Assembly (NCBI RefSeq): GCF_007833275.1
Contig: NZ_CP042241.1
Location: 248,001-312,000 of the forward strand
Origin: Salarchaeum sp. JOR-1
GTDB taxonomy: Archaea > Halobacteriota > Halobacteria > Halobacteriales > Halobacteriaceae
Length of the DNA stretch: 64,000 bases
Direction: 5' to 3'
Made by a program: the position numbers and the translations under genes. Of the stretch, positions 26,635-63,437 are shown in pieces. How positions within the stretch are numbered: position 1 is the stretch's first letter; each line of letters starts with the position of its first letter. The notes beneath the pieces are model-generated. The model was not told the origin of the DNA. It ran no database searches and worked only from the letters and a program-made list of their open reading frames with translations.

Positions 26635-26802
26635 ATGAAATCAGTCAGGAAGGGCCTCCGGGCGGGCGAACTGGAGAAGGACACCTACGACCGACTGGTG
26701 TGCGCGGAGTGCGGGGAGAACCTCAAGACGGAGAACGACCCGGACGAGGTCGGGAGCGTCCGCGTCTGCCCCGACTGCGGGAAGCGCTGGCAGCAGATCT
26801 AG
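26635..26802 (+). CDS. HVO_0758-family zinc finger microprotein
   Basis: A 55-residue protein with two CxxC knuckles, CAECGENL at 23-30 and CPDCGKRW near 45-52, forming a single zinc ribbon. The N-terminus (MKSVRKGLRAGELEKDTYDR) is the family hallmark as I recall it from Haloferax. The group belongs to the haloarchaeal zinc-finger microproteins studied for regulatory roles; the function of this member is not known. It overlaps the SDR gene tail to tail by 4 bases. Confidence 0.88.
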   Translation: MKSVRKGLRAGELEKDTYDRLVCAECGENLKTENDPDEVGSVRVCPDCGKRWQQI

Positions 26803-27674
26803 TACGCGTCGAGGGCGGCGCGGTAGCCCTCGCGGTACGTCGGGTAGGCGAACTCGTAGCCGAGCCGATGCAGGCGTGCGTTCGAGCAGCGCTTGCTCGT
26901 CAGAATCCGGCGCTCCGCGGCCTCGGAGAGGTCGCTCTCCTGCAGGCGGTCTTCTTTCGTGCGTTTCGGCGGCCGGGGGACACCGGCCTCGTCGGCGAGC
27001 CAGTCCGCGAACGCGTGCTTCGAGACGGGTTCGTCGTCCACCGCCAGCAGCACCTCGGGCGCGTCCTCGGTGAGCGCGAACCGAACGACGCCGGCCGCGT
27101 CGTCCCGGTGAATCATGTTCAGGTAGCCCTCCGTGACGGGGCCGTCCAGGTAGCGCTCCAGGCGGTAGCGGTCGGGGCCGTAGAGGCCGGCGAACCGGAC
27201 GACCGACCCGCCGATGCCGTGGTCGGCGGTGCGCTCGCGCGCGACGCGCTCGGCCTCGGCGAGCACCTCGGTCTTTTCGGTGGTGGGGTCGAGCGGCGTC
27301 TCCTCGTCCACCCAGTCGCCGCCGTGGTCGCCGTACACGCCCGTGCTCGACGTGTACACGAATTCGCCTGGTGGGTTCTCGCGCCCGCCGAAGTGGTCGA
27401 TAGCGGTGCGGAGGCCGTCGACGTACACCTCGCGCGCGGCGTCCGCGCCGCGGCCGCCCGAGGACGCGATGAACACGACGGCGTCCGCGTCCGGCACGAC
27501 TTCGAGGCTTTCGGGGTCGGTCACGTCCGCGCGCACGCCGTCGAACCCCGCGTCCGCGATAGCCGCCAGACCGTCGTCCGAGCGGCGGACCCCGACTGGT
27601 TCGTGGCCGGCGGCGGCGAGCTGTCGGCCGAGTTCGAGCCCGACGTACCCACACCCCAGAATCGCGACCCGCAT
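26799..27674 (-). CDS. NAD-dependent epimerase/dehydratase (extended SDR)
   Basis: A 291-residue protein with the dinucleotide motif ILGCGYVGLELG (5-16), the VFIASSGG strand, FVYTSSTGVYGDHGG with the active-site Ser/Tyr region, and VVRFAGLYGP near 160. The Rossmann fold is close to atypical SDR5-like nucleoside-diphosphate-sugar epimerases of the YeeZ type; substrate unknown. ATG at 27674 overlaps the stop of the DUF5791-like gene (TGATG), so the two are coupled. Confidence 0.86.
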   Translation of the reverse strand: MRVAILGCGYVGLELGRQLAAAGHEPVGVRRSDDGLAAIADAGFDGVRADVTDPESLEVVPDADAVVFIASSGGRGADAAREVYVDGLRTAIDHFGGRENPPGEFVYTSSTGVYGDHGGDWVDEETPLDPTTEKTEVLAEAERVARERTADHGIGGSVVRFAGLYGPDRYRLERYLDGPVTEGYLNMIHRDDAAGVVRFALTEDAPEVLLAVDDEPVSKHAFADWLADEAGVPRPPKRTKEDRLQESDLSEAAERRILTSKRCSNARLHRLGYEFAYPTYREGYRAALDAY

Positions 27675-28105
27675 CACCAGGGGTTCTCGACCGCGAGGTA
27701 GTGATGGATCTCTGCGTACTCGCGGAGCGTCATCGGCTGACGGCCCTCGATCTTCTGCTGGACTTCTTTCGGGTCGAGCGCCGCGTCGATACCGTCCGCG
27801 AGCGCGTCCACGTCAACGACCGCCGAACTCATCTGGAGCATCACGTGATCCTGGAGTTCGAGTCGAACGGTCTCGGCGTCCGGCCAGTCGTCCGTGAGCG
27901 CGAGCAAGTCCGCCGCCTCCGAGACGGTGACTGGATCGCCGTCGCCAGATTCGATGTCCGCGACCCGTTCGGGGGAGAGCCCGGTGGCGTCGGCGACGGC
28001 GTCCACGCCCTCGGCATCGATGACGGCGAGCAGGGCGGCCTCGTACTCCGCGAACACCTCGTCCGCCGAGACGGACTCGGGTTCTGAGATGGTATCGGTC
28101 AACAT
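27674..28105 (-). CDS. Conserved haloarchaeal protein (DUF5791-like)
   Basis: A 143-residue acidic protein. Residues about 40-75 (ATGLSPERVADIESGD, then TVSEAADLLAL) resemble a degenerate helix-turn-helix, and residues 80-120 form an amphipathic helix. The C-terminal TLREYAEIHHYLA is well conserved as I recall. It may be a DNA-binding or scaffold protein. It precedes and is coupled to the SDR gene; a TATA-like ATAAACTC at about 28134-28142 lies upstream on the minus strand. Confidence 0.75.
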   Translation of the reverse strand: MLTDTISEPESVSADEVFAEYEAALLAVIDAEGVDAVADATGLSPERVADIESGDGDPVTVSEAADLLALTDDWPDAETVRLELQDHVMLQMSSAVVDVDALADGIDAALDPKEVQQKIEGRQPMTLREYAEIHHYLAVENPW

Positions 28106-28143: not shown

Positions 28144-30918
28144 TTACCAGCCGGGCGAGCGCTCGTCCGCGTTCCCGTCGGTGTCGCCGACGCCACGCGG
28201 GCCCGGCGGGACGGCCGCGACGACCACTGTATCGAACGCGAACTCGACCCGGGCGTTCCGGCCGAGCGGTTCCGGACGGCTGTCGCCGTCCACGTCGAGG
28301 GAGACAACGCCGCCCTCCCGGACGTACTCGTACGCGCCGGCGTCGAACCCGGGCGGGAGCGCGCCGCCCGAAATCGCGACGCGCTCGTAGCCGCCGCGAA
28401 CGGAGACGGCCCACACGTTCACCGTGGCGTACCAGAATCCGGGCAGAGGGGCGACCGGAAGGCCAGCGGGGAGCGCGGCGAGGCGGCCGCCGAGCGCCCG
28501 CTTGACGCGTCTCGTGGACGCGCGGCCGAGCGCGGCGGTGAGTTCGGCCCGCGTGGCCTGTCGGGCCGCGCGCACCACGTCCTCGTCCACGCCACCGGTG
28601 TCGCTCCGAGCGACCGCGCGGGACTCCGCGCGGAGCGCCGCGGCGAGCGCCACCCGTTTTGCCCCACGCGTCCCCGAGTCCGCGACGACCGCCGCGGCGA
28701 GCGACCCGTTCGTCGCCGCTCGCGCCCGCGCCGCATCGGTTCTCCAGCGCGTCGCCGCGCTCGAAACGACGCGCTCCGCCGCGCCGGAATCGAGGCCCGT
28801 CCGGGCGTCGAGAACGGCCGCGAAGCGCTCGCGGGCGCGTGCGGTCTCGGCGCGCACGGCGGCCGCGAGGTCGGGCGTTCGTGTGCCCGCAGCGGCGAGG
28901 AGGTCGGCGGCCACCGCCAGTCGAACGGCGCGCTCGCCGCCGTCGAAGGCCGCGTCGGTAACGGTGTCGGCGGCGTCTCCGTAGGGGAGCGTGAAGACGT
29001 TCAGGTTCCGCGCGGCGAGCGTCTCGGCGTCTGTCAGCGAGAGGTACCGCGGCGACACGGACACCTCAGAGACGACCGTTTCGGGCGTCTCGCGCGCCGT
29101 GACGCCCGTCGGAACCCAGCCGCCGAGTCGGGTGACCGTGTCCCGAAGCGCGCCGCGGACGCTGGCCGCGTCGCCGGCGCGCTCTCGAACCACAGCGAGC
29201 GCGTCATCGAGGTAGTGGGCGCGAACAGCGGTGAGCGCACGTTCCGCAATCGAGTCGTAGCGAGCGGGCGCCGCCACCAGGTGATCCCGATTGGCGGCGA
29301 GCGTCCGTGCGAGCGCCGAAACCGGCGACGACGCGAGGACGCCCGCGCCGCTCACGCGAACCGCCGTCGAGGTGTTCGCCACCCGGTTTCGAATCCGACC
29401 GAGCGATCGCGCCGCGCGCTCCCGGAGCGATGGCGGCTGAGATACCCGCACGGTCGCGGAGCGTGTGCCGGCGTCGCCGGTGACGGCACGCGCGGCGAGC
29501 GAGTCCGCACCGTCCGGGAGGAGCGCGCTGCGAACCGCGGCGGTCGCCCGCTCGCCCAGGGCGTCCACGGGGCGGTTCGGAACGCCGTCGAGCGCCGCGG
29601 GGCGGGCGGTGAGCGCGACCGAGACGCGGTACGTTGAACGTTCGATGCCGGTGACGGTACGAACCGCGGAGCCGTTCGTCCACGACGCGCGGGTCGTCCG
29701 GGTCACGGTCACGCGCCGACCGAACGCATCAAGGACGCGGAACGCGTTGTGAACGTCGAACACGCCGACAGCTCCGGCCGTAGCGGCCGTGACGGCTGTC
29801 TCGGTCGTAGTGTCCGTCGCCACCCGCGTCCAGTTCTGGGGTGGGGTAGCGGTGTCGAGTCGGTGGTCGGTTCGCGTCACGCGGACGAGGCGGCGGGCGT
29901 CGAGACGGGAAGCGTTCTCGAGCACCGCATCCAGCGCGTTCAGGGCGTCGAGGAGCGCTGTGTCAGCGGCCGCAGCGGGCGTGAGCGACGACTGGGCGGG
30001 CGGGTGCGATGGTGGCTGCGTGGGCGTGACGTTCATCGCTCCGAAGATGCGGGTCGCACGCGCCCGAGCGCTCGCGCGAGTGACTGCGAGCATGTCGCGT
30101 ACGCCGGTGAGCGCGTACGCCCGCCCCACGGCCTCGTTCGACGCGGTCGACGCGCGGCCGAAGGTTGCGCGTTGGACGGCGAGCAGGCCGTCGTTCGCGG
30201 CGACCTCGACGTGGCGGTTCGCGAGGACGTTCGCGATGGGTGCGCCGGCGTACTGCGCGAGGCCGCGAGCCGCGGTGTAGGGTGCGAGCCGCAGTGTCGC
30301 CTCGCGGGCGAGGCCGTACCCCTGGAGGACGCCGCGGTCGACCCGTGCGGCGAACGAGGCCATTCGGTCGTGGAGCGCGAGCACGGGCGTGTCGACGACC
30401 ACCGAAACGGCGCGCTCGCGGACGCCGACGGACTCGCCGTGCTCGGTGACGGCGAGCGTCGCGTTCCGAACAGTTACCCGCACTCGGTTCGGACGGAGTT
30501 CGTCGAGTGTGACCGCGCGAATCGCGCGGCGGGCGTCTCGCGGACTGTCGATCACGTCGAGAGACACACGAGCAGTCGCGTCCCCGTGTCGAGTGTCGAG
30601 GTCTGTGAACGCCGCGCAGGCGGCGGCGTACACCCGGAGTGCGAGCGCGTCCCGGAAGGCGGAGTCATCGCGGAGGACGCGTCCATACGGAGTGTTCGCG
30701 GGAGTGACGACCGGGTTGGCGGCGGCGGCGGCGCTCGCTTCGATGGTCGCGCGTTCGAGGGCGATGCGTGCACCGGCGAGCGCGCGGTCGGCGGCCCGGT
30801 CGGCGGCGTTCGTCTCCGCGGGTGTGTCGCGTGTGGCGAGGGTCGCGCCGACCGCCGTGGCGGTGACGAGGAGGACGACGCCGACGAGCGCGAACGGCAC
30901 GCGGCCGCGGTCGTCCAT
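28144..30918 (-). CDS. Large pilus/secretion-associated protein (DUF7286-like)
   Basis: A 924-residue protein, the last and largest of the secretion operon. One N-terminal hydrophobic segment (about 8-26, VPFALVGVVLLVTATAVGA) anchors it, and the rest is an extracytoplasmic, Ala/Arg/Thr-rich domain with many short predicted strands and little low complexity. No catalytic motif is seen. The ATG at 30918 overlaps the stop of the preceding gene (TGATG). The C-terminus is Pro/Gly-rich (PPGPRGVGD). The protein may be a tip adhesin, minor pilin or secreted structural subunit; all are inference from context. Confidence 0.78.
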   Translation of the reverse strand: MDDRGRVPFALVGVVLLVTATAVGATLATRDTPAETNAADRAADRALAGARIALERATIEASAAAAANPVVTPANTPYGRVLRDDSAFRDALALRVYAAACAAFTDLDTRHGDATARVSLDVIDSPRDARRAIRAVTLDELRPNRVRVTVRNATLAVTEHGESVGVRERAVSVVVDTPVLALHDRMASFAARVDRGVLQGYGLAREATLRLAPYTAARGLAQYAGAPIANVLANRHVEVAANDGLLAVQRATFGRASTASNEAVGRAYALTGVRDMLAVTRASARARATRIFGAMNVTPTQPPSHPPAQSSLTPAAAADTALLDALNALDAVLENASRLDARRLVRVTRTDHRLDTATPPQNWTRVATDTTTETAVTAATAGAVGVFDVHNAFRVLDAFGRRVTVTRTTRASWTNGSAVRTVTGIERSTYRVSVALTARPAALDGVPNRPVDALGERATAAVRSALLPDGADSLAARAVTGDAGTRSATVRVSQPPSLRERAARSLGRIRNRVANTSTAVRVSGAGVLASSPVSALARTLAANRDHLVAAPARYDSIAERALTAVRAHYLDDALAVVRERAGDAASVRGALRDTVTRLGGWVPTGVTARETPETVVSEVSVSPRYLSLTDAETLAARNLNVFTLPYGDAADTVTDAAFDGGERAVRLAVAADLLAAAGTRTPDLAAAVRAETARARERFAAVLDARTGLDSGAAERVVSSAATRWRTDAARARAATNGSLAAAVVADSGTRGAKRVALAAALRAESRAVARSDTGGVDEDVVRAARQATRAELTAALGRASTRRVKRALGGRLAALPAGLPVAPLPGFWYATVNVWAVSVRGGYERVAISGGALPPGFDAGAYEYVREGGVVSLDVDGDSRPEPLGRNARVEFAFDTVVVAAVPPGPRGVGDTDGNADERSPGW

Positions 30919-31343
30919 CACGGCCACCACCGTCGGAGCACTATCGAAGTGGTTCCGACGCGGAGCACCGCGGCGGTCGTGTCCACGGTTCGAGGCGGGG
31001 GCGTACCGATACGGAGAACGGTTCCGTCGGCGCGAGCGGCGACGCTCGCGCGACCCGGAAGCGCGTCGAGGCGGTCGTCCACGAGGGCGGCGACGGCCTG
31101 CGAGTAGGCCGAGTCGGGGCGGGGGGCTGCGGCGGCCAGGTGGGTGGCGACGGTGGCGCGAACCGGCCCGGTCGTGGTGTTCACAGTGGCAGTGGTGACC
31201 GCGAGCGCATCGAGGGCGGGGCCGGCGTCCGGCGGCGACGGCTGAGGGGCGGGTGTCAGAACGAACAGCGCGGTGACGGCCGCCGCGATGAGAGAGACGG
31301 CGATCACGGTGTCCACAGCGGTACTGACGCCGCGCGCGGTCAC
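30918..31343 (-). CDS. Single-TM pilin-like protein (DUF7284-like)
   Basis: A 141-residue protein with a GTG start. Charged residues TARGVSTAVD are followed by a hydrophobic helix (about 11-29), a pilin-like N-terminus; the remainder is a beta-rich domain of about 110 residues ending TSIVLRRWWP. A classical archaeal prepilin peptidase site is not clear, so processing is uncertain. Start overlaps the previous stop (GTGA), stop overlaps the next ATG. Confidence 0.75.
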   Translation of the reverse strand: MTARGVSTAVDTVIAVSLIAAAVTALFVLTPAPQPSPPDAGPALDALAVTTATVNTTTGPVRATVATHLAAAAPRPDSAYSQAVAALVDDRLDALPGRASVAARADGTVLRIGTPPPRTVDTTAAVLRVGTTSIVLRRWWP

Positions 31344-31717
31344 CACACGACCACCCGAAGGCGGCCGAACAGCACGTCCCCGGAAGCGACGCGAACGGCG
31401 ACGGGACGGCTCGCGGCGTCCGCCTCTGCAGGTGGCTGCGGGCCGACACTCCACGTTCGGCCGCCCGCGGAGAGCGTGACGTTCACGGGCCGAGAGATGT
31501 CGGGGCGGGCGTCGTCGAGTCGATCCAGTTGGGCGACGCCCTGGACGAGGAGAACGTCGGTCGCGGCGTCAAGGGCGGACGGGGCGAGGTCGCGGTCGGC
31601 GGTCGGGAGGCTGTGGTCGTACGCGGTCGCGTAGCCGGCGAGCGCCGTGCAGAGAACGGCGACGCAGACGAGCGCGACGAGCGGTTCCGCCTGCGCCCTA
31701 CCCGACGAGAACGACAT
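31340..31717 (-). CDS. Single-TM pilin-like protein (DUF7285-like)
   Basis: A 125-residue protein. The N-terminus SFSSGRAQAEPLVALVCVAV has the RxQxEP-then-hydrophobic pattern of archaeal pilins, with a helix at about 11-31 and a small extracytoplasmic domain ending RLRVVVW. The ATG at 31717 lies 20 bases inside the upstream gene, and the stop overlaps the next GTG. It is likely a minor pilin of the same machine. Confidence 0.76.
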   Translation of the reverse strand: MSFSSGRAQAEPLVALVCVAVLCTALAGYATAYDHSLPTADRDLAPSALDAATDVLLVQGVAQLDRLDDARPDISRPVNVTLSAGGRTWSVGPQPPAEADAASRPVAVRVASGDVLFGRLRVVVW

Positions 31718-32156
31718 CGATCCCCCGCCACGCGAGGTGGCGAACGCGGAGCGTCTCGGCGGCCCGCCACACCGGAGCGCGGGCGCGAGCGGCGGCCACG
31801 GCGCGGACGAGCTCGACACCGGTGTCGAAGACGAGCGCGGGGTCGCGGCCGGCGAGCACGGCGGCGAGCGGGCCGTCCGGTGGAACTGGAACGACGCGTG
31901 CGACGAGCGCGGCGGACGCCGTCCCACCGGAACCGCGCAGGCCGACGCTACGAGGGGTGACGCGGACGGCGTCGGCGTCAAGGTGGCGGTGAGCGCTCGC
32001 GTCGTAGTCACTCACGGCGACCCGGTCGATGGTCGCGGCGGCGGCGGTGGCGTCGGGCGGCGGTGCGGCGGGGACGGCGAGCGCGGCGGCGACCAGCGTG
32101 GCTCCGGTGAGCGTGAGGCCGATCCAGGTCGCGAGCGCGTCTGCAGCGTCGAACAC
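31698..32156 (-). CDS. Single-TM secretion-associated protein (DUF7283-like)
   Basis: A 152-residue protein with an N-terminal membrane helix (about 10-29, WIGLTLTGATLVAAALAVP) and an extracytoplasmic domain (about 40-150) with the VRVTPRSVGLRGSGG and ALVFDTGVELVRAV elements. It follows the TadC-like gene by 25 bases and overlaps the next gene by 20 bases. It has no known function; placement right after the membrane platform suggests a minor pilin or assembly protein. Confidence 0.77.
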   Translation of the reverse strand: MFDAADALATWIGLTLTGATLVAAALAVPAAPPPDATAAAATIDRVAVSDYDASAHRHLDADAVRVTPRSVGLRGSGGTASAALVARVVPVPPDGPLAAVLAGRDPALVFDTGVELVRAVAAARARAPVWRAAETLRVRHLAWRGIDVVLVG

Positions 32157-32181
32157 GCCAATGGCTGTGCCGATATCTTAT

Positions 32182-33858
32182 TTAAACGCTCGTGACGAGT
32201 GCGGCGGCCGTGGCGACGACCGGATAGACGAGGCCGGCGACGGCGAGCGCGGAGCCGGCGGCGTTGGCGGCGCGAGCGCGGTCGGCGCCGTGCCGGACGA
32301 CGGATCCGAACGCGGGGAGGAGAACAGCGAGCGCGACGACGTACCCGCCGACGACGAGTGCGAGCGCGTCCGGAGCGTACGGGAGCGCGCCGTCCCCGAG
32401 CGGGCGGAGGGTGCGGGCGAGCGCAGCGGTAACGCCGGCGACGCAGGGCGCGACCCAGCGCCCGGTCGTGTCGAGCGCGTTCGTGACGGACGCGAGGTCG
32501 GCGGTGGTGTCGCGTTCGACGCGGACGAGGCGGTCGAGGTGGTCGGCGAGCGCGACGAGCACGCGCCCGCCGGGCGGGCCGGCCGCGGCGGCGTCCGCGA
32601 GGACGGCGGCGGTCGAGCGTGCGCGAGGGCTCGGGTGGTCGCGGAGCGCGCCGTGCGGCCCGAGGAACGCCGTTCGGGTGTCGGCTGTGAGCGTGCGCTG
32701 GAGGCGGCTCGCGTCCGCGAAGACGGTGGAGACGGTTCCGTCGAGTTCGGCGGCCGCGGCGGCGAGCGCGCCTTCGGGAGGGTGGCCGCGGCGGACGTGC
32801 TGCCCGACGACGACGAGCGCGTCTGGAAGGCCGCGTTCGAGCGCCGCGATATCCTCGCGAACGCCGAGCACGGGACGCGTCCACCGCACGAGGCCCGTGC
32901 CGAGTCCGACGACAGGGGCGAAGGGGAGCGCCCACGGCGCGAAGACGGCGAAGGCGACGAGCGCACCGGTGGCCGCCGCGATGGCCCAGAGAAGGCCGGG
33001 GCGGGCGCGGCCGGCGAGCGCGGGGTGGTCGCGAGGTATCGGCGTGGCGGGGAAGGCGGCGGGGCGGCGCGCGAGCACGACGGCGATGGCGGCCGTGAGC
33101 GCGATCGGGAGTGCGAGGTCGTAGACGGCGGCCAGACCGACGAGCGGAACCGAGATCCCCGAGACTGGAGCGACGGGGAGCAATCCGACGAGGGCGAGCG
33201 GGAGGACGACCCCCGCGGCGTAGACGCCCGTGACGAGCGTCGAGAGCGTGCTCGCGTAGTCGGTGACGCGGGCGGCGACGGCGTCGAGGGAGACCGAGAG
33301 CGCGCGGTCGAGGAGGCGGGCGCGTTCGCTGTCGGGGGCGTTCGTGGCGGCTTCGACGAGCGCGATGGCGCGCGCGAGTTCGGGGTCGTGGTCGCGCCAC
33401 GCGCGCCGAAAGCGCGTCCACGCGGTGGTTGGTGCGCCGATCGCGTACCGGACGTGGCCGGCGAGACGGTCGGCGAGCGAACCGGGAGCGTCGGCGGCGA
33501 ACGCGGCAGTGTGTTCCGGCGTCGGTTCGAGCGCGCCCGCGAGGACGGCGCGGCAGACGAGGTCGGGGCCGTCGCCGAGCGCGCGCGACCGCTGGGAGTC
33601 CGCCGCGAGCGTGGGGAGCGCGAGGAGGGCAGCGGCAGCGAGCGACCCGAGCGCGAGCACGGCGAGACCGAGAGTGGGGGACGCGACGACGGAAAGCGCG
33701 AGCGCCGACCCGACGGAGAGCGCGGCGAACGCAAGCGCCGCGGTCCGGACGGTGTCGGCGTCCTCGGGTCGATCGAGGAGCGCCAGCGCGCGGTCGAGTT
33801 CGGGGTCGCCGCCCGCGGAGATCGGTACGAGGGCGGCGACGCGATCGAGGAGTGTCAT
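32182..33858 (-). CDS. TadC/GspF-like secretion system membrane platform protein
   Basis: A 558-residue integral membrane protein with two GspF-like halves: soluble helical domains at about 95-195 (LDRALSVSLDAVAARVTDYA) and about 320-440 (LERGLPDALVVVGQHVRRGHPPEGAL), each followed by pairs of TM helices. In type IV pilus systems it sits under the pilus and couples to the ATPase. Its ATG overlaps the stop of the ATPase gene by 4 bases (ATGA), which makes the pair a functional unit. Confidence 0.87.
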   Translation of the reverse strand: MTLLDRVAALVPISAGGDPELDRALALLDRPEDADTVRTAALAFAALSVGSALALSVVASPTLGLAVLALGSLAAAALLALPTLAADSQRSRALGDGPDLVCRAVLAGALEPTPEHTAAFAADAPGSLADRLAGHVRYAIGAPTTAWTRFRRAWRDHDPELARAIALVEAATNAPDSERARLLDRALSVSLDAVAARVTDYASTLSTLVTGVYAAGVVLPLALVGLLPVAPVSGISVPLVGLAAVYDLALPIALTAAIAVVLARRPAAFPATPIPRDHPALAGRARPGLLWAIAAATGALVAFAVFAPWALPFAPVVGLGTGLVRWTRPVLGVREDIAALERGLPDALVVVGQHVRRGHPPEGALAAAAAELDGTVSTVFADASRLQRTLTADTRTAFLGPHGALRDHPSPRARSTAAVLADAAAAGPPGGRVLVALADHLDRLVRVERDTTADLASVTNALDTTGRWVAPCVAGVTAALARTLRPLGDGALPYAPDALALVVGGYVVALAVLLPAFGSVVRHGADRARAANAAGSALAVAGLVYPVVATAAALVTSV

Positions 33859-35642
33859 CGGAAGCGCTCCGTGCGGTCGGCGACGGCGGCGCGCACGTCC
33901 GCGTACGTCTCGTCGTGGGCGGCGAGCGACGCGACGAGCGACGATTCGCCGCGGCCGACCCGGCCCGACGACTGGAGGCCGTCGGGCGTGCGCTCGAAGA
34001 GCGCGTGAAATCCGTCGTCGAACTCCTCGACCGCGACCACTTGCTTGCCGTCGGCGGTGTCCGCGAGGGTGACGACGAGGTCAGTTGCAGCGAACGAGTT
34101 CGCGGGCACGCCGAGGTCGGACACGACGCGCTCGCGAACCGAGGCGCCGCCGTCGCCGTGGATGGTTCCGAGGACTGCGCTCGCACCCGCGCCGGTCCGC
34201 ATCGCTTCGTACAGCACGCCGGCCTCCGCGCCTCGGACCTCGCCGACGGCGAGCGCGCCCTCGCCCAGTCGGAGCGCGGTTCGGAGAGCGGCAGCGGTCG
34301 ACACGGCAGCGCCGTCGCCGTCTGCGGTCGCGCGGAGCGCCTGCACGTCCCGGCCGGCCGACTGGAGACCGGGAATCGGGAGTTCGGGGGCGTCCTCGAT
34401 GACGACCGTTCGAGTGTCCGGGGGGAGTTCCCAGAGGAGCGCGCCGAGGAACGTCGTTTTCCCGGCGGCGCGAGCGCCGGCCACGAGCACGGCCGCGCCG
34501 CGCTCCACCGCGACGGAGAGGAGCGCCGCGGCGTCCGGCGTCAGCGTCCCCGTTTCGACCAATCGCGGGAGCGTGAATCGCTGATCGCTGTGCGCGCGAA
34601 AGGCGAACCCGACGCCGTCCGCGACCGGTTCAGACACCGCGGCGACCCGCACGCGGTCGGCCGCTCCCACGTCACGGAGAACGGCGTCCAGCGTGGGGTT
34701 CGCGGGCGAGAACGGCCGGCCGCTCGCGGCGCGGACACGGGACGCGAGCGCGTCCACCCCGCGGGACGTGAGGCGGACGTTCGTCGGAAGCAAGCGGCCG
34801 TCGAGGACGACGCGTAATCGGGTGTCGGCAGCGGGTGCGGACGCGTAGACGTCGGTGATGCGGGTGTCCGCGAACAGGTCGTCGAGCACGCCGTATCCCC
34901 GCGCGTGTTTCTTCAGGACGGCGGCGACGTGCTGGGGTGACTCGGCGGCGCGTCCGGCAGCGCGATCGGCGGCACGGGTCGCGGCACGATCACCCGTCAC
35001 GACGCCATCCGCGAGGAGGTCATGGGCCCGGTCGAGCACCCGATAGGCAGCCTCGTCGAACGCGGTTTCGGGCGGTTCGACGTGGTAGGTTCGGCCGTTC
35101 GGCGTGTCGTAGCGGCGGGCGGTTGCGCCGCCGGAGAGGTCGACGGCGTCGACGAGCGCCGCGGCGGCGGGCGGGTCGGGGTCGACGCGAGCGTGGGCGA
35201 TGCGGAGGCCGACGAACACGCGGACGGCGTCGTAGCTCTCCACGCCGTCAGCGGCCACGTCGAGGCCGGTTTCGGCGGCGATATCGGCTACGGAACCGGC
35301 GCGACCGGTGGCTTCGCGGGCGGCGGCGAGCGGGTCGGTGCCGGCGAGCGCGGCGAGGCGGGCGTCCCGGTCGCGGACGCGGGGGGCGAACCGGCCGGCG
35401 GCGACGAGGAGCGCGGTCGTGGCGTCGTCGTATCGGTGGTCGCGTCCGACACTGCGGACGACGACGGCGGCAGCGTCGCGGTCGCCGAGCGCGTCGACGG
35501 CGGTCTCGCGGCATTCCGGAGCGGTGGCGAGGTCGCCGTCGCAGTCGGTGGCGTCGAGGACGAGCGTGTCGCGTTCGAAGGCGGGTCGGCAGCGACACCC
35601 GGCGTCGGTGTCGTCGCCGAGGAGCGCGCGGAGTCGTCGCAT
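33855..35642 (-). CDS. Type II/IV secretion system ATPase (TadA/PilB-like)
   Basis: A 595-residue motor ATPase. The Walker A GARAAGKT (about 388-395) is followed by an Asp box VVIEDAPELPIP and Walker B region LAVGEVRGAEAGVL, then a His box LGTIHGDG. The N-terminal 60 residues carry four cysteines (C16, C18, C34, C44), possibly a zinc site, a feature I do not know from bacterial TadA. The start at 35642 (MRRLRALLGDD) is chosen over an upstream frame extension that has no coding character. It forms the operon core with the TadC-like gene. Confidence 0.9.
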   Translation of the reverse strand: MRRLRALLGDDTDAGCRCRPAFERDTLVLDATDCDGDLATAPECRETAVDALGDRDAAAVVVRSVGRDHRYDDATTALLVAAGRFAPRVRDRDARLAALAGTDPLAAAREATGRAGSVADIAAETGLDVAADGVESYDAVRVFVGLRIAHARVDPDPPAAAALVDAVDLSGGATARRYDTPNGRTYHVEPPETAFDEAAYRVLDRAHDLLADGVVTGDRAATRAADRAAGRAAESPQHVAAVLKKHARGYGVLDDLFADTRITDVYASAPAADTRLRVVLDGRLLPTNVRLTSRGVDALASRVRAASGRPFSPANPTLDAVLRDVGAADRVRVAAVSEPVADGVGFAFRAHSDQRFTLPRLVETGTLTPDAAALLSVAVERGAAVLVAGARAAGKTTFLGALLWELPPDTRTVVIEDAPELPIPGLQSAGRDVQALRATADGDGAAVSTAAALRTALRLGEGALAVGEVRGAEAGVLYEAMRTGAGASAVLGTIHGDGGASVRERVVSDLGVPANSFAATDLVVTLADTADGKQVVAVEEFDDGFHALFERTPDGLQSSGRVGRGESSLVASLAAHDETYADVRAAVADRTERFR

Positions 35643-36070
35643 ACCCCCGAGTCGTCCCGGTTCCCTACTTGAAGGTTCGTCGCGCGGAGGCGGGGGCCGG
35701 CCGGACACGCGACCAGCGCGAGCACGAGCGTCGTCCGCCTGCTCGCGGTCAGCCGGCGCTCAGACGCGACCGGTACCGGGAGCCGACACACCCGGCGGTC
35801 GAAGGCGGCAGCGTGAACGCGGACTCCGCGGTCGACCGAGAGGCTGATTCCGGCTGGGAGCACGAGTGAGAGTGTGCGGGTCGCAGCCGTCCCGGGTGGT
35901 GCAGCGTTCGAGGTGGCGACGAGACCGTTCGCTGCGTCGCAGACGCGGTCGGCGGCGGTCGTCGCGGCGGCGAGCGCGCGGTCGGCGCGGGCGTCCTCGA
36001 CGGCGGGAAGTGCAGCCGCGACCAGCGCGGCGCCGACGGCTATCGCGACGAGCGCGCGAACCGCGGTCAC
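35288..36070 (-). CDS. Pilin-like protein with apparent 3' frameshift (DUF7311-like)
   Basis: The frame opens with a GTG at 36070 that overlaps the preceding stop (GTGA). Residues 1-20 are a membrane helix (ALVAIAVGAALVAAALP), followed by a small extracytoplasmic domain to about residue 130. After that the frame has no stop: it runs 355 bases into the ATPase gene as a Pro/Ser/Thr-rich tail to 35288. In the next frame a TAG lies at 35665-35667, just before the ATPase ATG, so a one-base slip near the G5 run at 35692-35696 would restore a protein of about 135 residues. The gene is therefore probably frameshifted or the read contains an error. Confidence 0.6.
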   Translation of the reverse strand: MTAVRALVAIAVGAALVAAALPAVEDARADRALAAATTAADRVCDAANGLVATSNAAPPGTAATRTLSLVLPAGISLSVDRGVRVHAAAFDRRVCRLPVPVASERRLTASRRTTLVLALVACPAGPRLRATNLQVGNRDDSGVCDDSARSSATTPTPGVAADPPSNATRSSSTPPTATATSPPLRNAARPPSTRSATATLPPSSSAVSDATTDTTTPRPRSSSPPAGSPPASATGTPASPRSPAPTRSPPPAKPPVAPVP

Positions 36071-36444
36071 AGGAACGCTCGAACGCGCTCGCGGAGCGAC
36101 TGCGGTTCAGGGGACTCGTCTACCCGCGGTTCGACATCGGGCACGGGATGCGGGAAGTCGGCCGCGCGCGTGGGTCGTGCGTCGTCTCGCGAAGCCGCCG
36201 ATGGCCGTACCGAGAACGCCTCGTTCGCGGGCTCCGAGGTTCGGTCGAGTTCGCCGACGTGTCCGCGGACGGCCTGAAGGTCGGCGTCGAGGTCGGCGAG
36301 CGCGCTCTCCAGGCGGTCGAGACGGGTTTCGAGGGCGTCGATTCGTTCGGGGGTTGTGGTGTCGAGGTCGGGGAGTTCGTCGGCGTCGGTGAGCGCGCGT
36401 TCGACCGCGCGGACGCGGTCGGCGAGCGAGGTTGTATCCGGCAT
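36067..36444 (-). CDS. Coiled-coil protein leading the secretion operon (DUF7310-like)
   Basis: A 125-residue acidic cytoplasmic protein. Residues about 7-68 are a heptad-patterned coiled coil (RVRAVERALTDADEL, then ALETRLDRLESALADLDAD). The C-terminal part is a Pro/Asp-rich linker ending SLRERVRAFL. It is the first gene of the operon and overlaps the next gene by 4 bases. A cytosolic adaptor for the ATPase is a reasonable guess. It is divergent from cetZ, with 75 bases between the starts. Confidence 0.76.
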   Translation of the reverse strand: MPDTTSLADRVRAVERALTDADELPDLDTTTPERIDALETRLDRLESALADLDADLQAVRGHVGELDRTSEPANEAFSVRPSAASRDDARPTRAADFPHPVPDVEPRVDESPEPQSLRERVRAFL

Positions 36445-36519: not shown

Positions 36520-37593
36520 ATGAAGGCCGCCCTCGTCGGCGTCGGCCAAGCCGGCGGTAAACTCACCCAAGCCCTCGTCCGAAACGACCGCGAGAACGGC
36601 TATGGAGCCGTGCAGGGAGCGCTCGCCGTCAACACCGCGCGCCAGGATCTCGCCCCGCTCGACATCCCAACCCTCCTCATCGGTCAGGACGTCGTCAGCG
36701 GCGACGGCGTCGGCGGCGAGAACGAACTCGGCGCGGAACTCATGCAGGAGGACACGCCCGAAGTCGTGAACGCCCTCGACGGCACTATCACCAGCCGCAC
36801 CGAAGCCGTGTTCGTCGTCGCCGGCCTCGGCGGCGGCACCGGCAGCGGCGGCGCGCCCGTCCTCGTCCGCGAACTCAAGCGCGTCTACGACATCCCCGTC
36901 TACTGCCTCGGCGTCCTCCCCGGACGCAACGAAGGCGCGCTCTATCAGGCGAACGCCGGCCGCAGCCTCAAGACCGTTGTCCGGGAAGCCGACAGCACTC
37001 TCCTCGTCGACAACGACGCCTGGTACGCGAGCGGCCAGTCCGTCACCGACGCCTACGCCGCCATCAACGACACCGTCGCCCACCGAATCGGCCTCCTGCT
37101 CGCGTCCGGTGAAGCCACTGACGGCGTCGCCGAATCCGTCGTCGACTCCAGCGAGATCATCAACACCCTCCGCAACGGCAGCATGGCCGCCATCGGCTAC
37201 GCCAGCGCCGACGCCAGCGCCGACCCGGAGGAGAACATCAACGTGGTCACCAGCACGATCCGGAAATCCCTCCTCACCGGCATGAGCGTCCCCGAAACCA
37301 CCGAATCCGACGCCGCGCTCGTCGTCGTCGCCGGCCACCCCGACCGCATCCCCCGCAAAGGCGTCGAACGCGCCCGCCGCTGGATCGAGGACGAAACCGG
37401 TAGCACCCAGGTTCGCGGCGGCGACTACCCCCTCGACAGCGACCAGATCGCCGCCCTCGTCCTGCTCTCCGGTATCTCCCGCTCCAGCCGCGTCGAATCC
37501 TTCCTCGACCGCGCCCGCGAAGCCGCCAAAACCGATCCCGAACCCGACCCCGCCGACGCCTTCCAGAACGACGACCTCGACGGGCTGTTCTAA
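36520..37593 (+). CDS. cetZ: CetZ tubulin-like cytoskeletal protein
   Basis: A 357-residue GTP-binding protein of the archaeal CetZ family, which controls cell shape and motility in haloarchaea. The N-terminal ALVGVGQAGGKL (4-15) and the tubulin signature GGGTGSG (104-110) are intact. The catalytic T7-type region and a C-terminal acidic tail (PADAFQNDDLDGLF) are also seen. It lacks the longer tail of FtsZ1/FtsZ2. The ATG at 36520 is preferred; an upstream in-frame region covers the divergent promoter. Followed by a possible terminator. Confidence 0.94.
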   Translation: MKAALVGVGQAGGKLTQALVRNDRENGYGAVQGALAVNTARQDLAPLDIPTLLIGQDVVSGDGVGGENELGAELMQEDTPEVVNALDGTITSRTEAVFVVAGLGGGTGSGGAPVLVRELKRVYDIPVYCLGVLPGRNEGALYQANAGRSLKTVVREADSTLLVDNDAWYASGQSVTDAYAAINDTVAHRIGLLLASGEATDGVAESVVDSSEIINTLRNGSMAAIGYASADASADPEENINVVTSTIRKSLLTGMSVPETTESDAALVVVAGHPDRIPRKGVERARRWIEDETGSTQVRGGDYPLDSDQIAALVLLSGISRSSRVESFLDRAREAAKTDPEPDPADAFQNDDLDGLF

Positions 37594-61304: not shown

Positions 61305-63437
61305 GTGACTGTCTCCCCCGAGGTGCCCGCGCCGGTGCCGCCCGACGCGGCCGACGCCTGGTACGCCCGCGACGTTCACAGCCAGTACGAACCGACGCCC
61401 GGCGTCGTCGTTACCATCACTCGCGACCACGGCGCGTTCCGCTACCGCGTCCGCGAACCAATCCTCACCGCCGCTGAACGTGACGCTCGCAGTCGCGTCA
61501 GCGACTACTTCGAGCGCGGACACCCGAACCAACCGCGGACGCGGGAGGGGGCTCGCGAGCGCTACGCCGCCGGGTTGGACGACAAACATCGACGCGCCGT
61601 CTCGCGCCTCGCCGACGCCACGCCAGCGGGCGAGCGTCGCCTGTGGTACTACGCGCTCCGGGACGTGCGGTGTCTCGGCGCGCTCACCCCGCTCGCCCTC
61701 GACGACCGCGTCGAGGTCGCGGACGCGGACGGCGAGACCCTCGTCGTCCACACGACCGAGTACGCGCCCGCTCACACCGACGTCTCCGCCGACGCCGACG
61801 CGCTCGACCGCTTCCTCTCCGAACGCCTCGACGCATACACCGTCCCGTTCCGCGAGTTCGACGTGCCGGTCGTCGTCTACCGCGAACACGTCCTCGGCAC
61901 GGACGCGTTCGACGTGCGGTACGCCGTCCGCGAACCCGACCTCCTCCCCGGCGACCGCGCACTCCTCGACGACTGCAAAACCCACGTCTGGGACGCCCGC
62001 GTCGGCGACCTCGTCGACGACCACGCCGCGTTCGTCACCGAACACGCCGACCGCTACCTCGCGCGCCGCCTCACCGCGCGGAACGCCGGCCGCTGGCTCG
62101 ACACCCTCGAACACCGCGCCCGCGACGCCCTCGCGGCCTACGACCTCGCGCTCCCGCCGGTCGACCGCCGGTTCGCGGACGACCGCCTCGACGACCTCCG
62201 GTACTACGTCCTCCGCGACTTCGTCGGGCACGGCGAACTCACCGTCCCCGTCCGCGACGACCACCTCGAGGACGTGGAAGCGAACCGCGTCGGCGAACGC
62301 GTCAAGGTCGTCCCCCGGCACTCGCTCTGGAAGGACGGCCGCATCCCGACGAACCTCGTGTTCGACGACGAACGGTCGTTCGTCGACCTCGTCACCCAGC
62401 TCGCCGCCGAGGACGGCGTGGAACTGAACGCGAGCAATCCCAGCGCGAAGGTCAACATTCGGCCGGACGGCGTCGGAGACGACGTGACCGTCCGGTGCGC
62501 CGTCGCGCTCCCCGCCATCAGCGCCGACGGCCCGCACGTCTCCATTCGGAAACAGGCCCCGGACGCGCTCACGCCGACCGACCTCGTGCGGACGGACTCG
62601 GTTTCGCCGGAGATGGTCGCACTGCTCTGGATGGCGTACGAACACCACGGCGTCGTCGTGTTCTCCGGCCCGACCGGCGTCGGGAAGACGACGCTCATGA
62701 ACGCCCACGCGCCATTCATCCCCCACCGCGACCGCCCCGTCAGCATCGACGAGGGCTCCCGGGAGGTGAGCCTGCCGCACGAGACCGGCGTCTCCCTGAC
62801 GACGCGCGACCACGAGAACCCGCACAAGCGCGTGACGATGGCCGACCTGATGACCGAATCGAATTACCTGAACCCCGACGTGGAGATCATCGCGGAGATC
62901 AACACGCCCGAGAGCTTCGAGACGTTCGCGGACGTGCTGAACACGGGCCACGGCGTCATCGGCACGACGCACGCGGCGGACGCCGACCGCCTCGTGAACC
63001 GCGTGGTCGAACAGGGACTCCCCGCGTACCTCCTGCGCGAAATCGACCTCGTCGTCTTCCCCCGGCACGTCGAGGGCGAACGCTACGTCGGCGAGATACT
63101 GGAGCTCGTGGACGAACCGGCGTACGACCGCCTCCCCGCGGACGAGCGGGGGCGCATCGAGAAGGACGACACCGTGATTCACTACCATCGGGTCGCGGGT
63201 CGCCGCGAGGGCGCGTTCTCGTTCGCGGACGCGAGCGAAATCGCCTTTTTCGACCGGCTCGCCGCGCACACCGACCGGCCGCGAGAGGCCGTCGTCAGCG
63301 AGTTCGAGCAGAAACGGCGGTACGTCGAGTACTTCGTGCGCGACGACCTGAGCGACCGCGACGACCTGTTCGCGTTCCTCGCCGACCTGCGGACGGACGA
63401 GGCGGCGACCGTCGAGCGCGCCGCGGGGGACGCGTGA
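61305..63437 (+). CDS. Type IV pilus assembly / type II secretion ATPase (PilB-like)
   Basis: A 710-residue motor ATPase with a GTG start. A large N-terminal domain (1-350) precedes a conserved core: Walker A GPTGVGKT (455-462), the Asp box SIDEGSREV, Walker B region VEIIAEINTPESF near 526 and the His box VIGTTHAADADRLVNR near 551. It differs from the ATPase at 33855-35642 in length and N-terminus, so two distinct systems are present. Its stop overlaps the start of the platform protein (GTGA). Confidence 0.92.
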   Translation: MTVSPEVPAPVPPDAADAWYARDVHSQYEPTPGVVVTITRDHGAFRYRVREPILTAAERDARSRVSDYFERGHPNQPRTREGARERYAAGLDDKHRRAVSRLADATPAGERRLWYYALRDVRCLGALTPLALDDRVEVADADGETLVVHTTEYAPAHTDVSADADALDRFLSERLDAYTVPFREFDVPVVVYREHVLGTDAFDVRYAVREPDLLPGDRALLDDCKTHVWDARVGDLVDDHAAFVTEHADRYLARRLTARNAGRWLDTLEHRARDALAAYDLALPPVDRRFADDRLDDLRYYVLRDFVGHGELTVPVRDDHLEDVEANRVGERVKVVPRHSLWKDGRIPTNLVFDDERSFVDLVTQLAAEDGVELNASNPSAKVNIRPDGVGDDVTVRCAVALPAISADGPHVSIRKQAPDALTPTDLVRTDSVSPEMVALLWMAYEHHGVVVFSGPTGVGKTTLMNAHAPFIPHRDRPVSIDEGSREVSLPHETGVSLTTRDHENPHKRVTMADLMTESNYLNPDVEIIAEINTPESFETFADVLNTGHGVIGTTHAADADRLVNRVVEQGLPAYLLREIDLVVFPRHVEGERYVGEILELVDEPAYDRLPADERGRIEKDDTVIHYHRVAGRREGAFSFADASEIAFFDRLAAHTDRPREAVVSEFEQKRRYVEYFVRDDLSDRDDLFAFLADLRTDEAATVERAAGDA

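Follow-up and report, generated by a model that had tools for sequence, protein, structure and literature searches.

A haloarchaeal pilB2/C2-type pilus cluster and its candidate giant minor pilin of the DUF7286 family

The gene cluster on the minus strand at positions 28144–36444 of the window (the whole 64,000-nucleotide stretch of DNA analyzed here) is likely the known haloarchaeal pilB2/C2 type IV pilus cluster (pil-2, resembling subclade 4F), as identified by its anatomy and synteny. It matches the published pil-2 or pilB2-C2 regulon, including the cetZ, DUF5791, and epimerase neighbors; the novelty implied by the initial annotation of this DNA does not stand, and given that several publications have already described the cluster (PMC4292770; PMC4858521; PMC9856176), the present analysis is not the discovery of a new system. 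What it adds to the published descriptions is a promoter element for three probable transcription units, sequence motifs in the DUF7285 and DUF7286 families, and relatives of DUF7286 outside the haloarchaea.

All eight minus-strand open reading frames were found where the initial annotation had placed them, and each has a relative in a Pfam profile search (below cut-off for g4). The first gene, g1 (36067–36444), encodes a 125-residue coiled-coil protein of the DUF7310 family (E 6.3e-18), which was seen in 30 of 39 related loci and is probably the arCOG07564 coiled-coil component described for subclade 4F (PMC4858521). It is followed by g2 (35288–36070), a DUF7311 protein with an N-terminal transmembrane anchor (E 2.1e-12, residues 4–121). 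Alignment with orthologues indicates that the g2 frame has no in-frame stop where these end (about residue 121–140), and that it runs on into the ATPase gene, as far as 35288. Just ahead of the ATPase start there is a TAG in a different frame; stop loss, frameshift, or assembly error are all possible, and a g2 overrun of similar kind appears in Halomarina halobia.

The motor genes come next. The product of g3 (33855–35642) is a PilB/TadA/VirB11-type ATPase of 595 residues, with the Walker A motif GARAAGKT and an N-terminal C-x-C...C...C domain whose four cysteines are kept in intact orthologues. It matches PF00437 above cut-off (E 3.9e-18), as expected of a GspE/VirB11-superfamily assembly ATPase; its match to a TadA-family model (E 5.9e-37) falls under that model's own cut-off, and its relatives in the PDB by sequence are 2oap, CpaF, and FlaI. 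The 558-residue product of g4 (32182–33858) resembles TadC/PilC platform proteins; it matches PF00482 at 21.8 bits (E 1.9e-4), below the cut-off of 25.2, and its position and size fit a platform protein. In nearly all related loci with both genes, the platform gene directly follows that of the ATPase. The source genome encodes three further T2SSE ATPases. A second PilB-like ATPase gene (710 residues) occupies 61305–63437 on the plus strand of the window and is followed by a hydrophobic-rich open frame; a PilA-type pilin (C2:319493) lies beyond this gene, past the window end.

Three published descriptions bear on the identity of the cluster. In Hbt. salinarum R1, pil-2 (OE1347R–OE1332R) consists of seven cotranscribed ORFs starting at pilB2, three of them predicted prepilins (Losensky 2015; PMC4292770). 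Like the window, it brings pilB2 and pilC2 together with three predicted prepilins, there as a cotranscribed block, and it is reported as restricted to haloarchaea; unlike the window, its reported transcript begins at pilB2, without g1 and g2, and its pilC2 carries an in-frame stop. The likeness is one of anatomy and synteny. Subclade 4F is described as having an ATPase with a Cys-rich N-terminus, a coiled-coil component, and a neighbor resembling FtsZ, and is predicted to form a pilus (Makarova 2016; PMC4858521). The window has the four conserved ATPase cysteines, the DUF7310 coiled-coil partner, and a divergent cetZ gene (36520–37593, plus strand; CetZ_C E 3.8e-63; 27/39 loci), which would be cetZ2 by published synteny. 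As a difference, the subclade 4F model includes major pilins of the PilA family that stand alone (arCOG02981) and, in many cases, a protein resembling those of the S-layer; H. volcanii PilB2 has been placed in 4C rather than 4F (PMC6491452), and the likeness to 4F here comes from gene features. Finally, the pilB2/C2 regulon has been described beside cetZ2, arCOG04674, and arCOG03095 (Brown and Duggin 2023; PMC9856176). The same association was observed in the window, with no difference noticed: downstream of the pilus genes, also on the minus strand, lie an HTH-like DUF5791 gene (27674–28105; E 9.6e-44) and an NAD-dependent epimerase/dehydratase gene (26799–27677; E 4.1e-11), which are arCOG04674-like and arCOG03095-like by position and are each present in 36 of the 39 loci.

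The remaining four genes encode small anchored proteins and one very large one. These are g5 (31698–32156; DUF7283, 152 residues, E 2.9e-39), with an N-terminal helix and compact beta-rich head; g6 (31340–31717; DUF7285, 125 residues, E 3.2e-29), with the prepilin-like sequence SSGRA/QAEPLVALV; g7 (30918–31343; DUF7262, 141 residues), with the N-terminus TARG/VSTAVD and matches to DUF7262 (E 7.8e-20) and DUF7284 (E 0.0054); and g8 (28144–30918), with a single N-terminal transmembrane segment. The 924-residue product of g8, initially described as lacking any recognized domain, belongs to the DUF7286 family (E 1.4e-250); it begins with the pilin-like sequence DDRG/RVPFALVGVVLLV and has an acidic C-terminal D-x-D-G region.

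Class III prepilin motifs were scored with a FlaFind-like pattern, as distinct from FlaFind's own output. This pattern fits 35 of 36 DUF7285 orthologues, as compared with 2 of 52 control proteins with N-terminal transmembrane segments, and in all 36 orthologues the last K or R before the hydrophobic core is followed by A or G. The DUF7286 start is a variant: [RK][GA]x[VI]P[FL]A, a pattern devised once these sequences had been inspected, is present in 37 of 38 orthologues. Position +1 relative to the putative cleavage site is mostly occupied by R, and the FlaFind-like pattern fits 1 of 37. By eye, g7 has R-[GA]-[VI]-S-T in about half of loci, and its leader is lost in Haloferax and others. DUF7283 (g5) gave no FlaFind-like class III motif in 30 sequences, and no conserved class III motif was found in g2, where the residue following the last K or R is mostly V or T. 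Because the loose pattern nonetheless matches g2 in 14 of 30 cases, it is weak evidence by itself. The predicted class III prepilins of the locus are DUF7285 and, with its variant motif, DUF7286, joined by g7 in part of the species only. At the level of sequence, the motif in DUF7285 and the pilin-like start of DUF7286 suggest a giant minor pilin in DUF7286; this N-terminus fits the initial proposal of the large protein as a possible exported or tip component.

Structural modeling with AlphaFold2 gave a confident prediction for DUF7283 (mean pLDDT 89.4; about 97 in the beta-rich head and 60–62 in the helix), which had no match in the PDB. The DUF7286 model, of moderate quality (pLDDT 76.3, pTM 0.45), consists of helices and long beta strands. 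An enzymatic or otherwise known fold for this protein was rejected: neither the PDB nor a set of viral models contained a structure matching at E ≤ 0.001, and a sequence search of the PDB returned nothing better than E 0.5. SecB and phage maturation proteins gave weak matches (TM about 0.05 for the latter), which were discarded. Since its model matches nothing in these sets, the fold of DUF7286 identifies it neither as an enzyme nor as a pilin.

The distribution of the families argues for a single system. Among 145 Halobacteria genomes, in which DUF7283, DUF7285, and DUF7286 were tracked, DUF7286 is present in 110, DUF7285 in 106, and DUF7283 in 106; all three occur together in 105 (about 72%) and are then nearly always adjacent, with DUF7286 and DUF7285 within 7 kb of one another in 104 of 106 genomes. 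The probability of such an overlap is 1.7e-29, a figure that ignores the relatedness of the genomes. This co-occurrence rules out independent scattering of the small genes; the three families travel together, and therefore the idea of one co-inherited pilus-like machine, put forward initially, holds. Neither of the two results named in the initial annotation as contradicting it, scattered small genes or an unrelated enzymatic fold in the large protein, was obtained. The four genomes with DUF7286 alone contain only fragments or a broken copy, and these remnants without DUF7285 or DUF7283 suggest repeated loss of the system. Gene order was compared in the 39 haloarchaeal loci, which were fetched by DUF7286 and are also the set in which the two motor genes, DUF7310, and DUF7311 were tracked. 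The order cetZ, g1, g2, g3, g4, g5, g6, g8, DUF5791, epimerase recurs in most of them. No relatives of g7 were found by phmmer, and its orthologues were picked out by eye, as either DUF7284 or a shorter version of it; g7 is the short counterpart of DUF7284 (about 280 residues elsewhere), long forms of which occupy the equivalent place in other loci. In a few genomes g5–g8 are separate from g3–g4, and the cluster therefore has modules.

The view of the cluster as one tightly overlapping operon survives in part. Five gene pairs do overlap, by 1–20 nt (g1/g2, g3/g4, and g6/g7 by 4 nt, g5/g6 by 20 nt, g7/g8 by 1 nt); three transcription units are nevertheless probable, because a gap of 25 nt separates g4 from g5 and a promoter-like element precedes g3 as well. 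The g3 element (35643–35676, minus strand; TTCAAGTA...CCGGGACGA) lies at −34 from the ATG and matches with zero mismatches, at C2:283652 of the source genome, a pattern that had been loosened to fit it. The corresponding element of g5 (32157–32189, minus strand; TTTAAATA...ATCGGCACAGCCA) lies at −33 from the GTG and is conserved in related loci, where TTTAAATA...CGGGACCA occurs upstream of g5 at leaderless distance. A position weight matrix was built from g5 sites alone, with the window sites excluded, and scanned over 831 kb; its best 120 matches included 35 at g5 (by construction), 16 at g1, 15 at g3, one at g2, and one at the epimerase gene; the other 52 had no assignment, and several of these are evidently g3 starts that it overlooked. 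Within the window, scores are high at g3 (16.1) and g5 (16.4), weak at g1 (7.1), and negative at g2, g4, g6, g7, and g8, which casts doubt on transcription as a single operon. The g3 element was counted in 8 of 16 loci, an underestimate as the g3 start is misplaced in some of them. From these sequence comparisons, the cluster probably consists of three units with a common promoter element upstream of g1, g3, and g5. The element is not exclusive to the locus, occurring 4 to 17 times per genome (six genomes, ≤2 mismatches) as compared with 0 to 2 for a reversed control, and it may alternatively reflect a general leaderless-promoter architecture. A possible palindrome, CGGG-N5-CCCG, was noted in it by eye, and the DUF5791 protein is a speculative candidate for binding it. 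Additionally, several haloarchaea have a short MinD-type ATPase gene (L093, L155–L163) with a promoter similar to the g5 element. Across nine genomes, the highest score upstream of this gene falls at −32 to −34, with values between 4.6 and 22.4 (background: 95%, 1.6; 99%, 7.2); the element is strong in about five of the nine and weak in the rest. The window's own genome gave no match to the MinD-type ATPase at E 1e-20.

The absence of a prepilin peptidase and a major pilin, as initially reported, is true of the cluster and not of the genome, which encodes a single Peptidase_A24 (PF01478; C2:807668, E 3.8e-12) and three PilA-type pilins above cut-off (C2:319493, C2:381319, C2:1124253). Other pilus loci of haloarchaea have already been reported to have their peptidase and pilins encoded away from the locus (PMC4858521). 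We propose that the ATPase and platform (g3, g4) would power assembly at the membrane, which g6, g8, and, in many species, g7 would enter as pilin-like subunits to be cut by the single peptidase encoded elsewhere. In this scheme, g5–g8 would make up the tip or initiation end, where the outsized DUF7286 protein would serve as a minor pilin displayed on the cell exterior; PilA-type pilins from elsewhere in the genome would supply most of any filament that is built. The products of g1 and g2 may have an accessory or positioning role, and CetZ may act as a scaffold there. The function of such a pilus is probably adhesion; relative expression of pilB2 is 8.5-fold higher in adherent Hbt. salinarum cells (PMC4292770). 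Several points weigh against this proposal. We found no report in the literature of a filament from this locus, and the in-frame stop in pilC2 puts its function in doubt even in Hbt. salinarum R1 (PMC4292770). Further points are the R at +1 in most DUF7286 sequences and their poor fit to the FlaFind-like pattern, the lack of a conserved class III motif in g5 and g2, the loss of the g7 leader in Haloferax and others, and the moderate, unmatched model of DUF7286.

Beyond the order, relatives of DUF7286 were also identified in 11 genomes belonging to the phylum. In two f18 genomes (L139, L140), a DUF7285-like gene lies just upstream of the DUF7286 relative, with no ATPase or platform relative within 19 kb; in three further loci (L141–L143), DUF7285 was not found adjacent. 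Methanosarcina acetivorans matches both DUF7286 and DUF7285, though DUF7285 exceeds the cut-off in only one of two control genomes. Elsewhere in the phylum, the DUF7286 relatives adjoin a small protein with a Sec-like signal, as might be expected if the machine were a short pseudopilus, acting as a secretion piston that drives a substrate (possibly DUF7286 itself, or the product of a distant gene) across the S-layer without a long filament. The lack of a major pilin in the cluster is in keeping with this, as are its several small pilin-like proteins, which recall type II secretion, but DUF7286 is anchored in a pilin-like manner instead of being secreted free, pilins of the PilA type are present in trans, and published predictions favor pili (PMC4858521); we consider a piston unlikely. 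That the locus is decaying or conditional, with little present function in many species, is highly improbable: DUF7286 remnants occur in four genomes (G011, G066, G055, G124), g2 lacks a stop in the window, and Hbt. salinarum strains carry a pilB2 insertion and, in R1, the pilC2 stop (PMC4292770), but the window has intact g3–g8, DUF7283, DUF7285, and DUF7286 are retained together in about 72% of the genomes sampled, and promoter elements are conserved.

A further suggestion is tentative, and we hold it to be possible rather than likely: DUF7286 as giant minor pilin, with DUF7285 and neighbors, may be a tip or initiation module older than haloarchaea and separable from the motor, and haloarchaeal co-regulation of this module with the motor and the MinD-type ATPase, through one promoter element, may yield a cytoskeleton-positioned pilus. 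The locus is widespread in haloarchaea, and the prepilin motif, the pilin-like DUF7286 start, and the shared promoter element provide specific and cheap experimental leads in Haloferax.
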